A stretch of 39,820 nt of DNA. Origin: an uncultured Lachnospiraceae bacterium. Lineage in GTDB: Bacteria > Bacillota > Clostridia > Lachnospirales > Lachnospiraceae. Below the pieces are notes generated by a model. That model was not told the origin of the DNA, did no database searches, and saw nothing but the letters and a program-made list of their open reading frames with translations. Positions 5,469-32,190 of this stretch are shown piece after piece (positions within the stretch are counted from its first letter, which is position 1; each line of letters opens with the position of its first letter). Location: positions 1 to 39,820 of the forward strand of contig CAMUYQ010000015.1 of the NCBI GenBank assembly GCA_947165025.1. The letters are read 5' to 3'. A program made the translations under genes and the position numbers.

Positions 5469-5933
5469 TTATTGTATACCGTCTCTGAGCCAGTATATAA
5501 CCGCATCTTCTTTCGGGTTGTTATAAAACCCGGGCCGTACTCCCTCGCTCACAAACCCAAGGCTTTCATACAGCTTTATGGCCGGCTCATTGCTTATCCG
5601 AACCTCAAGGGTAAAATCATATGCCCCGAGCTTTCTGCCTCTTTCGAGAAGTTCCTCCAGCATCCGCCGTGCGATCTTCCTGCCCCGGTGATCCGGATGA
5701 ACCATAACATTTGTTATCTCACCGGTGCCTACGATGTTCCTGACACCTGCAGCTCCGATGATACTCTCTTTTGGATCTGCATCCGCATCAACTGCCACGA
5801 CATATTCGACATCCGGCAGTTCAAACGTCTCCCTGTACACCTTCTCCGACCACGGGTCCGAAAAGACCATCTTCTCGAGGGCGGCCACGCGCGGGATATC
5901 AGTTTCTGTCATCTGTCTTATAATTATATTCAT
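5469..5933 (-). CDS. rimI: Ribosomal protein S18-alanine N-acetyltransferase-like (GNAT)
   Basis: 154 residues of a GNAT fold. The acetyl-CoA loop is VHPDHRGRKIARRML (about residues 77-91), preceded by the strand EITNVMV. The C-terminal RISNEPAIKLYESLGF is the RimI signature. The enzyme acetylates the N-terminal alanine of S18 in E. coli; here that role is assigned by family and by the common tsaE-tsaB-rimI-tsaD gene order. No good ribosome site precedes ATG 5933. The upstream DNA instead holds the structured element at 5956-6082, and the bases just before the start codon can form a 9-bp hairpin with that element's left arm. Confidence 0.9.
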   Translation of the reverse strand: MNIIIRQMTETDIPRVAALEKMVFSDPWSEKVYRETFELPDVEYVVAVDADADPKESIIGAAGVRNIVGTGEITNVMVHPDHRGRKIARRMLEELLERGRKLGAYDFTLEVRISNEPAIKLYESLGFVSEGVRPGFYNNPKEDAVIYWLRDGIQ

Positions 5934-5964
5934 AAATACTTCAAACGTAACCGAAGAAGTATTT
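5934..5964. promoter_or_regulatory. Alternative hairpin at the rimI start
   Basis: AAATACTTC (5934-5942) pairs perfectly with GAAGTATTT (5956-5964) across a 13-nt loop. The first arm ends directly at the rimI start codon. The second arm is also the outer left arm of the 5956-6082 element, so the two pairings exclude each other. This is what a translation or processing switch looks like, but no function is shown. Confidence 0.5.
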
Positions 5965-6082
5965 ACTGTTTGCGAAAAAAGCTTTGGAGGACGTTGTTAC
6001 TTGACGAGGTTTTTCACGAGTCTAGTAACGTGACGTCCGGAAAGGAGCGAAAGCGCCTTTTTGAGCAAATTGTAAATGCTTC
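5956..6082. repeat. Structured dispersed element, copy 1 (tsaB-rimI gap)
   Basis: One long imperfect hairpin, written on the plus strand. Outer arms pair 5956-5981 with about 6054-6082 (GAAG, ATTTAC, TTTGC and AAAAAG blocks). GGACGT (5989-5994) pairs with ACGTCC (6033-6038). GTTACT (5996-6001) pairs with AGTAAC (6024-6029). After a T-T mismatch, GAC (6003-6005) pairs with GTC (6020-6022). The loop is GAGGTTTTTCACGA. The right side carries a GTG bulge (6030-6032) and a side hairpin with a GCGAAAGC core. Copy 2 is at 25833-25976. It begins 23 nt after the tsaB stop. The acting strand is unknown. Confidence 0.8.
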
Positions 6083-6105
6083 GAGGTATATTACATTAAG
6101 ATTAA

Positions 6106-6807
6106 CTATGGATTTGAGTTCCTCTCGCGCTCCGCCTGGCTCGGTCTCAGATAGTCCGGCTTGTGGTCGGCTGCGGTCACCGTCCGCCCTTCGCGCATAT
6201 AGCGCATAGCAAGGAAAGCAAGTGCTCCGGCTCTCTGGCGGTTCATGTGAATCGGCGCAAACCTGTAAGGGACGGTCATCTCAGTTTCGATCCTGTCCTT
6301 GTATACAGGGACGGCGTCTCCGAGAAATACAACTCTTCTGCCCGTCTCATTGAGCATCTTTACAACGGTCGATATATCCTCGGCAAACCGCTCATGAATA
6401 ACTGAGAGTTCATCGTTGACATCAAACTCATAAAACCCCGTATATACCTGATCACGTCTGGCATCCATGATAGGACAGATAAGATCGTCTGTTCCCCACA
6501 TGTTCATTGCCAGTGCATCAACGGTACAGACCTCGATTATCGGCTTATCAAGCGCAAGGCCGAGACCCTTGGCCGTTGCCGACCCGATACGAAGTCCCGT
6601 GAACGATCCGGGGCCTGCCGCAATCGCCACGGCATCTATGCTCCCAAGATCAAGCTCGGTCATCTTCTTTATCTCATCAAGCATCGGGAGCAGTGTCTGG
6701 GAATGAGTCTTCTTAAAATTGACCGTATATTCGGCAACGAGCGTATCTTCTGTCGCTATCGCCACGGTTGCCACAAGTCCCGATGAATCAATCGCAATTA
6801 TCTTCAT
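6106..6807 (-). CDS. tsaB: tRNA threonylcarbamoyladenosine biosynthesis protein TsaB
   Basis: 233 residues, ASKHA fold, paralogue of TsaD that scaffolds the t6A-forming complex. N-terminal IIAIDSS, the helix start KTHSQTLLPMLDEI (about residues 33-46) and AAGPGSFTGLRIG (about residues 63-75) are the TsaB signature. It lacks the HxxxH metal site of TsaD, as expected. The start overlaps the tsaE stop by 4 nt (ATGA), indicating coupled translation. Downstream, copy 1 of the structured element separates it from rimI. Confidence 0.95.
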   Translation of the reverse strand: MKIIAIDSSGLVATVAIATEDTLVAEYTVNFKKTHSQTLLPMLDEIKKMTELDLGSIDAVAIAAGPGSFTGLRIGSATAKGLGLALDKPIIEVCTVDALAMNMWGTDDLICPIMDARRDQVYTGFYEFDVNDELSVIHERFAEDISTVVKMLNETGRRVVFLGDAVPVYKDRIETEMTVPYRFAPIHMNRQRAGALAFLAMRYMREGRTVTAADHKPDYLRPSQAERERNSNP

Positions 6808-25832: not shown

Positions 25833-25976
25833 GCAGGGAAGAAGGCAGTGTATATATTTTACGGGCATTCCGCAGGCTCGTTACTTAGCGAGGTTTCTCA
25901 CGAGCTTAGTAACGTGAGCACCGAGGACAATGAGCGGGAGCGTCCCGGAAAATATATACACTGACTTATTCCCTGC
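25833..25976. repeat. Structured dispersed element, copy 2 (mtnA-thl gap)
   Basis: A long hairpin. Outer arms: GCAGGGAA (25833-25840) with TTCCCTGC (25969-25976), AAG/CTT, a perfect 15-bp CAGTGTATATATTTT helix (25846-25860 with 25949-25963) and CGGG/CCCG. Inner helix: GTTACT (25880-25885) with AGTAAC (25908-25913), a T-T mismatch, then AGC/GCT where copy 1 has GAC/GTC. The loop is GAGGTTTCTCACGA, differing by one base from copy 1. A GTG bulge and GNRA-like side hairpin (GCGGGAGC) recur on the right side. It begins 19 nt after the mtnA stop. The rest of the 315-nt gap (25762-25832) holds only a small GAGGC/GCCTC hairpin. Confidence 0.85.
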
Positions 25977-25995: not shown

Positions 25996-27054
25996 TCATC
26001 TTTGCCCGAACGAGAAAGGAGGATAGTATATCCCTGTCTCGGTAATTATCGCAGTGATCAGCGAATGATCCGTAACATCAAATGCGGGATTGAACACCTT
26101 GATGCCTTCGGGCGCCATCCTCTTCTCATACCACATTGTCGTGACCTCATCGCCGTCGCGCTGCTCGATCGGAATGTCGGCACCGCTTTTGATGGAAGGA
26201 TCGATAGTTGACATCGGACCGCAGACATAGAATGGAATGCCGTAGTGCTTTGCAAGCGTTGCCACGACACTTGTCCCGATCTTGTTGGCGGTGTCTCCGT
26301 TTGCGGCAACCCTGTCGCATCCGACAAGAACCGCATCTATCTTACCGGATGCCATAAGAGCTCCTGCCATGTTGTCGCACTGCAGCGTTACATCCATGCC
26401 CGCTGCGGCAAGTTCATATGCGGTAAGCCTTGCCCCCTGAAGGAGCGGCCTTGTTTCATCACAGAATATGTGAAAATCATACCCGCGCTCGTGTCCGAGA
26501 TACATCGCAGCTGTTGCCGTGCCGTACTTTGATGTGGCAAGCTGCCCTGCGTTGCAGTGGGTCAGGAGTCCGTATCCCGGCTTTAAAAGTGTCAGCGCAT
26601 TTTCGCCGATCGCCCTGCAGGCATCCTCATCCTGCTGTCTGATAAGGAGTGCTTCGGCGCGCATCGCATCAAGTATCTCTGAAACAGGCTTTCCTGCATT
26701 ATCCTTAACTACACGGTCCATTCTGTTAAGCGCCCAGCTTAAGTTAACAGCAGTCGGCCTTGAACTGTTAAGGTAGTCCCTGTCCTTTGAAAACGCGCTG
26801 TAGAACTTATCATGATCAGTCTCTTTGATCCTGCACGCACAAAGGTAAGCCGCGAACGCAGCAAACACACCGATCGCCGGCGCGCCTCTTACCTCCAGAC
26901 GCTTTATCGCATTATAGAATTCCTCAGGCAAAGACAGACGAAGCATCCGTCTTGTTCCGGGAAGCTTCGTCTGGTCTATTATCACTATCTCTTTTGCCGC
27001 ATCATCAAGTGATACGGTTTCGTCAATCTCAAAATTCCGGCTCGATGAGTCCAT
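25996..27054 (-). CDS. mtnA: S-methyl-5-thioribose-1-phosphate isomerase
   Basis: 352 residues from ATG 27054, which has AAAAGGA 6 nt upstream; the longer frame to 27156 lies inside hpf and is unlike MtnA. It isomerises methylthioribose-1-phosphate to the ribulose form in methionine salvage. EVRGAPAIGVFAA, the catalytic cysteine in LLTHCNAGQLATSKYGTA, and the acid in VGCDRVAANGDTANKIGT are the family signature, also shared by eIF2B-like proteins. No mtnK or other salvage gene is adjacent, so a role in 5-deoxyribose disposal is also possible. It overlaps the hpf end by 26 nt. Confidence 0.93.
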   Translation of the reverse strand: MDSSSRNFEIDETVSLDDAAKEIVIIDQTKLPGTRRMLRLSLPEEFYNAIKRLEVRGAPAIGVFAAFAAYLCACRIKETDHDKFYSAFSKDRDYLNSSRPTAVNLSWALNRMDRVVKDNAGKPVSEILDAMRAEALLIRQQDEDACRAIGENALTLLKPGYGLLTHCNAGQLATSKYGTATAAMYLGHERGYDFHIFCDETRPLLQGARLTAYELAAAGMDVTLQCDNMAGALMASGKIDAVLVGCDRVAANGDTANKIGTSVVATLAKHYGIPFYVCGPMSTIDPSIKSGADIPIEQRDGDEVTTMWYEKRMAPEGIKVFNPAFDVTDHSLITAIITETGIYYPPFSFGQR

Positions 27055-27556
27055 ATGTGTTTCCTTTTCTCTTGTACACAACGCTCGTCTGACCGTTCTC
27101 GGCATTTGTGAACACATAGAAGCTGTGTCCGCAAAGCTCCATCTGAACGCATGCATCTTCGGGATACATCGGCTTCATATCGATCCTCTTTGTACGGACG
27201 ATCTTGATCTCGTCATCGTCGTTGTAATCCTTATCAAGGAAATCCTGACGGAAGTTTTCCGTCGCATGCTTGGCGTCGATGATCTTGTTCTTGTACTTCT
27301 TGAGCTGACGCTCGATGATCTCCTCAACAAGATCGATCGAAACATACATATCGTTACTTACCTGTTCCGAACGGATGACCGAGCCCTTAACGGGGATCGT
27401 AACCTCTATCTTCTGTCTGTCCTTTTCCACGCTTAAAGTAACGTGTATCTGAGTGTTAGGAGTAAAATAACGCTCAAGCTTTCCTATCTTGTCCTCCACT
27501 GCCTGTCTTAAGCCCGGTGTGACATCAATGTTCTTGCCTACGATTACAAATTCCAT
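27029..27556 (-). CDS. hpf: Ribosome hibernation promoting factor (long form)
   Basis: 175 residues. It dimerises idle ribosomes to 100S particles in stationary phase. The N-terminal HPF/YfiA domain (about residues 1-100) starts EFVIVGKNIDVTPGLR and has the Y-box-like KLERYFTP. A linker follows, then the C-terminal dimerisation domain KPMYPEDACVQMELCGHSFYVFTNAENGQTSVVYKRKGNTYGLIEP, which marks the long form. It lies 21 nt after the NlpC/P60 gene and overlaps mtnA. Confidence 0.95.
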   Translation of the reverse strand: MEFVIVGKNIDVTPGLRQAVEDKIGKLERYFTPNTQIHVTLSVEKDRQKIEVTIPVKGSVIRSEQVSNDMYVSIDLVEEIIERQLKKYKNKIIDAKHATENFRQDFLDKDYNDDDEIKIVRTKRIDMKPMYPEDACVQMELCGHSFYVFTNAENGQTSVVYKRKGNTYGLIEPEF

Positions 27557-31467: not shown

Positions 31468-31510
31468 ATTATTCAGTATAGCGGTTATATTCCGGTTATG
31501 CTATACTTGA

Positions 31511-31612
31511 TGCCGAAAAATCTCCGAGCCCACCGGCCTACAGCAGAAGCCATGGTCCTTGGGCCGCAAGAATATCTTGCCGGGGTACGGAAGGAAACAA
31601 CCGTGCCTTCCC
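31511..31612 (+). promoter_or_regulatory. Candidate Moco (molybdenum cofactor) riboswitch
   Basis: A structured leader upstream of the ECF S-component. It contains CTCCGAGCC (31522-31530), the hairpin GCAAGA-ATA-TCTTGC (31566-31580) and GGAAGGAAACAACC followed by GTGCCTTCC (31589-31611), all resembling the Moco RNA motif as I remember it. GGAAGG/CCTTCC is followed by CTTTTTG, a terminator-like end. CCTTTT (31611-31616) could also pair with AAAAGG at the ribosome site (31619-31624), so control of translation is another option. The nearby mobA and formate dehydrogenase genes support a molybdenum role. Assignment by memory of the motif, not by search. A possible -10 box TATACT lies at 31502-31507. 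Confidence 0.68.
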
Positions 31613-31632
31613 TTTTTGAAAAGGAGTACACA

Positions 31633-32190
31633 TTGAAAAGACTCGATCTTGAGCACTTGATCTTCGCAGCTCTTTGCTGCGATTGTGGTTTGATTGCAAA
31701 AAAACTCATAGGTCCCGCGGCAAACTTTGTCACGGAACTGCTTCATATACCCGGCGGTATTGCAACATCATTCTCTCTGATGTTCCTTGTGGTTGCTGCC
31801 GCGACGATCAGACGCTTTGGCTGTGCCACGATAATGGGCATTGTCCAGAGTCTTCTGGCTTTCACATTCGGAATGACGGGAAGTATGGGGGCACTTGCTC
31901 CGATAGGTTATATCCTTCCCGGCATCGTCATCGATGTGATCCTCTATATCTCTTACAAAAAAAATCCCATACCGACAGCGGGAATAGTCGCATCATCGAT
32001 AGCGTCTTCGATATGCGCCTGTCTTGTAGCAAACATACTGGTATTTAACCTTGGCGGGATTGTTCTTCTTGTATACGCATCTGTTGCGGCAACAAGCGGG
32101 GCGATATGCTCGCTTCCTGCCTTTACGCTAACAGAGCGTCTTATCCCCATATTACAAAAAGGTGTTCATACAGAAAGGAAACAAACATGA
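31633..32190 (+). CDS. ECF transporter S component-like membrane protein
   Basis: 185 residues from TTG 31633, chosen for AAGGAG 6 nt upstream; the open frame extends back to 31498 through the riboswitch but that part is non-coding. It has five to six hydrophobic helices, small-residue rich, with a short basic N-terminus (KRLDLEHL) and TSFSLMFLVVAAATIRRFGCATIMGIVQ. This is the pattern of ECF substrate-binding (S) subunits, which use a shared energising module encoded elsewhere. Control by a Moco-type riboswitch suggests a substrate linked to molybdenum or pterin metabolism; this is inference. The next gene overlaps by ATGA. Confidence 0.75.
   Translation: MKRLDLEHLIFAALCCDCGLIAKKLIGPAANFVTELLHIPGGIATSFSLMFLVVAAATIRRFGCATIMGIVQSLLAFTFGMTGSMGALAPIGYILPGIVIDVILYISYKKNPIPTAGIVASSIASSICACLVANILVFNLGGIVLLVYASVAATSGAICSLPAFTLTERLIPILQKGVHTERKQT

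Follow-up and report, generated by a model that had tools for sequence, protein, structure and literature searches.

ERIC sequences are palindromic and are found in both orientations. They are described as short intergenic repeats that occur in tens to hundreds of copies, with a copy number that depends on the taxon (PMC10969869), and REPs are given as 20–40 bp long (PMC3733652). The repeat analyzed here is of a kind already known, the interspersed palindromic repeat of MITE-like character. Like ERIC, it is short, intergenic and multicopy, a likeness of description rather than of compared sequences; unlike ERIC, it resides in another bacterial family, its core appears to be exchanged and flipped inside locus-specific arms, and it can adopt a three-way junction with a GNRA hairpin. 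It resembles bacterial MITEs (e.g. Correia elements and QMITE2) in being non-coding and, for the version found in one genome, G331, in having terminal repeats and target duplications. However, its centre rather than its ends is most conserved, and the copies in its own genus have no duplication beyond the control level. With the REP/REPIN sequences associated with RAYT it shares the form of interspersed extragenic hairpins, but it is ~140 nt long, has a branched fold, and its own genome lacks a Y1 gene. It is new within its kind because the centre is conserved instead of the ends, and because the cores are shared within genomes and invertible inside locus-specific arms. No name for the repeat was found in Rfam, or, as judged by titles and the beginnings of abstracts, among the papers on such repeats that were listed; the words Lachnospiraceae, Butyrivibrio and Clostridi- are absent from the main text of the RepRanger paper, and the matches listed by a literature search with sequence letters included no bacterial-repeat paper by title.

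The window, that is the whole stretch of 39,820 nucleotides that was analyzed, contains two copies of the repeat. The outer limits of the arms were set by eye. The features are as follows.

5950..6087, + strand: copy 1, full extent including arms, antisense to the two genes that flank it, rimI and tsaB
5950..5967, + strand: copy 1, left outer arm, locus-specific
5968..6070, + strand: copy 1, core of type A, matching structure model R1 with 92.9 bits
6006..6019, + strand: copy 1, apical loop GAGGTTTTTCACGA, in which tandem G.A pairs may form
6045..6055, + strand: copy 1, GNRA side hairpin
6071..6087, + strand: copy 1, right outer arm
5469..5933, - strand: rimI (TIGR01575)
6106..6807, - strand: tsaB (TIGR03725)
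25833..25976, + strand: copy 2, full extent including arms, antisense to the two genes that flank it, a thiolase-like gene and mtnA
25833..25851, + strand: copy 2, left outer arm
25852..25957, + strand: copy 2, core of type C, matching model R1 with 75.4 bits
25890..25903, + strand: copy 2, apical loop GAGGTTTCTCACGA
25932..25942, + strand: copy 2, GNRA side hairpin
25958..25976, + strand: copy 2, right outer arm
25996..27156, - strand: mtnA (TIGR00512), start codon uncertain, 343 of 386 aa searched

Each copy is a ~140-nt quasi-palindrome with a conserved core inside locus-specific arms. An earlier note, made from the sequence alone, had described two copies with this anatomy; both are present at the places given, and their shared features were found again, namely the loop, a U.U mismatch, a 2-nt bulge, the GNRA side hairpin and three covarying base pairs that differ between the copies while remaining paired. 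The outer arms, as also described there, are unrelated in sequence between the copies and each is self-complementary. The core can be folded on one strand into a three-way junction, in which an apical hairpin with the U.U mismatch and a GAG...CGA loop stands beside the GNRA side hairpin. The elements do lie past the minus-strand stops of tsaB and mtnA; the spacing, given earlier as 19–23 nt, is 18 nt for copy 1 and 19 nt for copy 2 with the arms as placed here. An Rfam scan of the window yielded four matches, none of them at copy 1 or copy 2, where the gathering thresholds were not reached, and when six loci were scanned permissively (E up to 5), the two hits obtained were weak and lay away from the element. 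This agrees with the earlier note, in which the element was not recognized as a named RNA family. Elsewhere in the window, at 31510-31642, an Rfam scan places a molybdenum/tungsten cofactor riboswitch with 92 bits.

The two copies are members of an abundant family. The exact loop occurs six times in the genome of the window, against one occurrence of a reversed control pattern, and was found in 7 of 61 genomes in a search of relatives, all of the same genus and with the own genome counted. Model R1 identified 45 copies in the own genome, 24 matches in G023, and matches, some of them weak, in 28 of 37 genomes of the genus (E up to 0.01 in each case), so that the search for many intergenic copies in relatives proposed in the earlier note came out positive. 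A scan of 295 genomes sampled from the order, with stricter filters and at most 13 scored candidates per genome, yielded R1 matches (E up to 1e-4) in 34, all of the same family: 34 of 48 genomes of this family compared with 0 of 247 of other families, where the total of 48 presumes, in line with the order of the listing, that none of the 241 unlisted genomes is from this family. At least 117 stretches matching the 26-base apical hairpin were found in a scan of named genomes; those listed came from Lachnospiraceae, from other Clostridia-like names (Butyrivibrio, Clostridium symbiosum, Hungatella and others) or from unplaced bacteria. The GNRA side hairpin stands at the expected place in 86 of the 117 loci and is absent from 31. 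Viral contigs contained no exact match to the 26-base apical pattern, and phages and plasmids contained nothing similar to copy 1. The repeat family is thus abundant, in a family of bacteria common in gut and rumen, and is confined to that one family as far as sampled. The 14-nt loop, proposed as conserved, holds for both copies of the window but is one variant among several: of the 45 own-genome copies, 12 have the 14-nt form, 27 a 13-nt GAGG...CGA loop and 6 another apical part.

The pairing is strongly supported by covariation. The alignment on which model R1 is based comprised 44 class-1 members of less than 85% identity, out of 101 that fitted. In these 44 non-redundant relatives 85.9% of the cells of the named structure are paired, compared with 67.5% after shuffling, and 312 cells changed on both sides, compared with 99.9 (sd 11.0). 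Changes on both sides occurred at 28 of the 32 pairs, and the covariation score of 0.547 exceeds both the shuffled score (0.210) and those of slid versions (0.105–0.149), over which the structure is favored by having been named from folds of the same sequences. Compensatory changes between related copies, e.g. L144/L146 and G014/G018, were also read by eye. The covarying helices noticed in the two copies are thus borne out in the wider family. Nonetheless, a hairpin may covary very strongly without having an RNA function, because upkeep of a palindrome at the DNA level could yield the same signal.

The G-U pairs, counted against RNA controls, provide a simple test that is applicable to other candidate RNAs. 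Over the 20 variable pairs of the 44 core sequences, G-U accounts for 23 of 877 cells (2.6%) and A.C for 13. The SAM riboswitch of these bacteria, with a structure from RNAalifold, which credits G-U, has 26 of 270 (9.6%) and no A.C (10 variable pairs, 27 distinct sequences), and the acceptor and T stems of 32 tRNAs, all of them used and placed in register by their Watson-Crick pairs alone, have 27 of 384 (7.0%) and one A.C. Fisher tests of the core G-U count against Watson-Crick pairs gave p values of 1e-5 with respect to SAM and 9e-4 with respect to tRNA, the controls being imperfectly matched. The TPP riboswitch, with seven predicted pairs of which three were variable, was unusable as a control. 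In the arms outside the core (94 of 99 copies) G-U accounts for 42 of 1769 cells (2.4%), a count that leans low because the arm alignment gave G-U no credit, and A.C for 33. Other mismatches are common as well (37 in the core and 141 in the arms), so that part of the G-U and A.C counts may reflect misregister. An apparent strong G-U bias of the arms was rejected: the ratio of 118:39 obtained when bases shared with the core were counted fell to 42:33 without them. A bias is seen over all named core pairs (G-U 34, A.C 20, p=0.04), and the arms read relative to the host transcript show a weak one (34 and 23, p=0.09; 74 of 99 copies, with gene orientations typed by hand and some rows omitted). The scarcity of G-U is the firm point, and the absence of a strand bias is less firm. 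The scarcity fits upkeep of a palindrome by templated correction, without proving it. Template switching is reported to even out the arms of inverted repeats and to invert their spacers (PMC8604942). It has also been proposed for RNA stems, as a process that can create and maintain RNA hairpins (PMC8794818), and that report is by itself no argument for a function in DNA because it applies template switching to RNA genes.

Core and arms evolve largely apart, as judged by comparisons within a genus set of 99 copies, in which paralogues are the fetched copies only. In the own genome 49 of 990 copy pairs have an inner-core identity of at least 0.94, and the mean left-arm identity of these pairs is 0.405, compared with 0.338 over all pairs. 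For 59 of the 99 copies the nearest core lies within the same genome (26 expected, maximum of 40 in 1000 shuffles). Copies from two species that adjoin a shared gene form 23 pairs: in 13 the two cores resemble each other less than each resembles its best paralogue, in 7 they resemble each other more, and 3 are mixed. Cores across species versus their paralogues show identities of 0.69 versus 0.97 and 0.87 in a cobB-like gap, 0.56 versus 0.91 and 0.97 in an oxidoreductase gap (L172/L206), and 0.75 versus 0.97 and 0.86 in the scpA-scpB gap. Counter-examples, in which the core follows the locus, are L144/L146, L147/L231, L232/L148, L182/L149, L149/L220, L195/L229 and L195/L012. The arms at a common site were more alike than 95% of the control pairs in 9 cases out of 25 and than 99% in 6, and were not beyond the 95% control in 16. 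The counts for cores and for arms both retain L196/L139 and L189/L217, whose copies have a gene in common but flank it on opposite sides, as well as the pairs at purF, clpB and buk, which apparently have one common neighbor only. The copies L230 and L224 have nearly identical arms (0.85) and cores with an identity of merely 0.66. The arms are specific to the locus, and the cores tend toward other cores of the same genome.

The copies occupy the gaps between genes in either orientation. By crude ORF calls, which assign copy 1 to divergent genes although it actually lies between co-directional ones, 39 of the 99 copies are sense and 39 antisense to two co-directional neighbors; the neighbors are convergent for 13 copies and divergent for 5, and for 3 a neighbor is missing. 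By the same crude calls no preference for the 3' ends of genes was apparent, and the location past 3' ends noted for the two window copies does not seem to generalize. At one shared site the core, as judged by alignment, is inverted between species. The cores of L195, in the own genome, and L012 are 0.63 identical as read and 0.92 with one of them inverted; against both L195 and L229, which share the site, the L012 core matches at 0.92–0.93 inverted and at 0.63–0.65 as read. Read in the direction of the gene, the L012 site agrees with those of L195 and L229 at 43 of 59 and at 45 of 55 aligned bases over left flank and arm, and at fewer, 34 of 55 and 35 of 57, over the right flank. The inverted stretch at this one site spans ~100 bases, whereas the published spacer inversions involve 2 to 5 substitutions (PMC8604942).

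Filled and empty states were compared in the pgk-tpi gap of 28 genomes, of which 6 have the element in sense, 4 in antisense and 18 have none. The states require 8 changes on the tpi tree, a number as low as which arose in 24 of 200 shuffles. The gap is filled in G024 and empty in its sister G035, and the 144 extra bases of G024 include the arms. Since G014 and G018 carry the element too, G035 may have lost it by deletion rather than be ancestrally empty. In another genome (G008), an antisense copy in this gap (L269) has ~70 extra bases within its apical loop, perhaps a nested insertion. At a site 3' of thyA (L235), where in the own genome a complete element separates this gene from a DHFR-like gene, G023 has what by eye seem to be remnants of the arms.

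In G331 (the genome of L023, record CAJTEN010000011.1) the core is carried by a miniature transposon. Core and arms lie inside a unit that measures 189 bp, or 158 bp in a single copy, and is bounded by terminal repeats of about 18–20 bp. Of the 10 flanking bases, 9 or more agree in register in 16 of 19 copies; of the other three copies, two show a 9-bp duplication displaced by one base and one shows none. L042, one of the 20 CAJTEN copies, lacks the left terminal repeat and was left out of this count. The target duplications are thus 9–10 bp long. Mismatched flank pairs, which are often alike because the targets resemble each other, reach 8 of 10 in 96 of 930 control pairs. This 6.1-Mb genome contains 266 matches to the terminal repeat (up to 2 mismatches). 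A mobilizing IS was not found among the terminal-repeat places listed, where one wide-spaced pair of terminal repeats proved to be two elements flanking an SDR-like gene. The unit (L023, L036, L037 and others), read by eye, often lies in hairpin-like sites of the GTTAC.RTTC type. In the own genus the target duplication is not above control, with a repeat of at least 5 bases in 1 of 45, 0 of 23 and 0 of 31 copies. The element had earlier been set against transposons on the ground that a transposon would conserve its ends; that contrast is not supported, given the largely separate core and arms, the inverted core and the G331 transposon that carries the same core.

Mobilization of REP elements by a RAYT (Y1) transposase was rejected and is highly improbable here. 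The copies are short interspersed intergenic hairpins, and Y1 proteins (PF01797) occur in 27 of 48 genomes of the family. However, the own genome has none despite its 45 copies, and a loose apical-hairpin pattern gave nothing in the 8 long-Y1 loci examined (6–8 kb each; 8 of the 10 genomes with a long Y1). The RAYT-like Y1 proteins of L321, L322, L325, L326, L327 and L328 have about 250–285 aa, and their genes are flanked by other short repeats, of the GGGGAC/GTCCC type.

The evidence is best explained, with a probability of roughly 60%, by both copies being an ERIC/MITE-like interspersed palindromic DNA repeat that is kept and flipped at the DNA level and has a conserved fold. A genuine structured RNA family, with a transcribed element strand, a protein-binding core and arms that drift by compensation, appears unlikely. 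It would account for the covariation, the compensatory changes, the GNRA tetraloop with the conserved bulge and possible tandem G.A pairs, and the excess of G-U over A.C in the core. The element strand as a classical structured RNA is nonetheless argued against by the scarcity of G-U relative to SAM and tRNA, by the equal orientations and by the inverted core at an occupied site, as well as by the lack of an Rfam hit at the copies. The earlier proposal of a structured RNA or protein-bound hairpin therefore keeps its conserved pairing, and its RNA reading is weakened. The copies could instead act in mRNA as a REP/ERIC-like intercistronic element, a stable hairpin that sets decay or processing of the operon transcript and works in either orientation. 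The location of 78 of the 99 copies between co-directional genes (by the crude ORF calls), the filling of the pgk-tpi gap in 10 genomes on the tree and the weak transcript-strand G-U trend point that way. This explanation is possible but doubtful, as the strand-specific conservation of loop and GNRA hairpin is left unexplained and the pgk-tpi gap is empty in 18 of the 28 genomes.

That conservation also weighs against the preferred reading of a DNA repeat: loop, bulge and GNRA hairpin are conserved on one strand, and upkeep of a palindrome alone needs none of this. Both RNA and single-stranded DNA can form stable tandem G.A pairs, U.U mismatches and GCGNRAGC hairpins. Tentatively, and at somewhat less than even odds, a recombination or processing enzyme would recognize the fold in single-stranded DNA, and intercistronic mRNA may be affected as a by-product. 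A further explanation is independent insertion of the core into pre-existing hairpins, so that the arms would be host sequence. Near-identical cores between unrelated arms and the hairpin-like targets of the G331 transposon speak for it. It is quite improbable, however: the arms of the G178 copies look related to one another by eye, and it is disfavored at pgk-tpi, where the empty G035 site, possibly a deletion, lacks the arms too.

In the proposed mechanism of the DNA repeat, replication would switch templates between the inverted arms, which would keep the arms complementary and would also flip the core. Cores would be exchanged between copies by conversion or by repeated movement limited to the core, and a mobilizing or DNA-processing protein would recognize the one-strand fold, probably in the form of a hairpin of single-stranded DNA. 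If it is part of an operon transcript, the element would form a strong intercistronic hairpin in either orientation and may tune mRNA processing. A more speculative extension, rather doubtful at present, is that the spreading unit is the core alone, copied between resident palindromes and flipped there through ectopic template switching, with a folded single strand as the substrate. If true, this would be a mobile element that multiplies by conversion between palindromes and not by transposition, each locus keeping its own arms.

Several variants accompany the family. Simple hairpins that share the apical loop but lack the GNRA side hairpin, a number of them arranged in tandem (L044, L045, L050, L070, L090, L116 and L134), lie directly 3' of an extended -10-like box, TGRTATAAT, as read by eye. 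This class, separate from the GNRA-bearing one, may start a transcript. An antitermination hairpin of the LoaP system was weighed because these hairpins follow promoter-like boxes; it was rejected, since the LoaP-binding hairpin is described as of the UNCG type (PMC12691694), a tetraloop from which the loops here differ. In L196, L197, L177, L185, L170 and L216 a second type of apical hairpin (GGTACTTAG...CTTATGTACC) tops an otherwise similar core and looks as if the apical part had been swapped as a module. Paired elements lie side by side in opposite orientation in L175, L199 and L200 and in tandem in L170, with a core-to-core distance of 46–61 bases.
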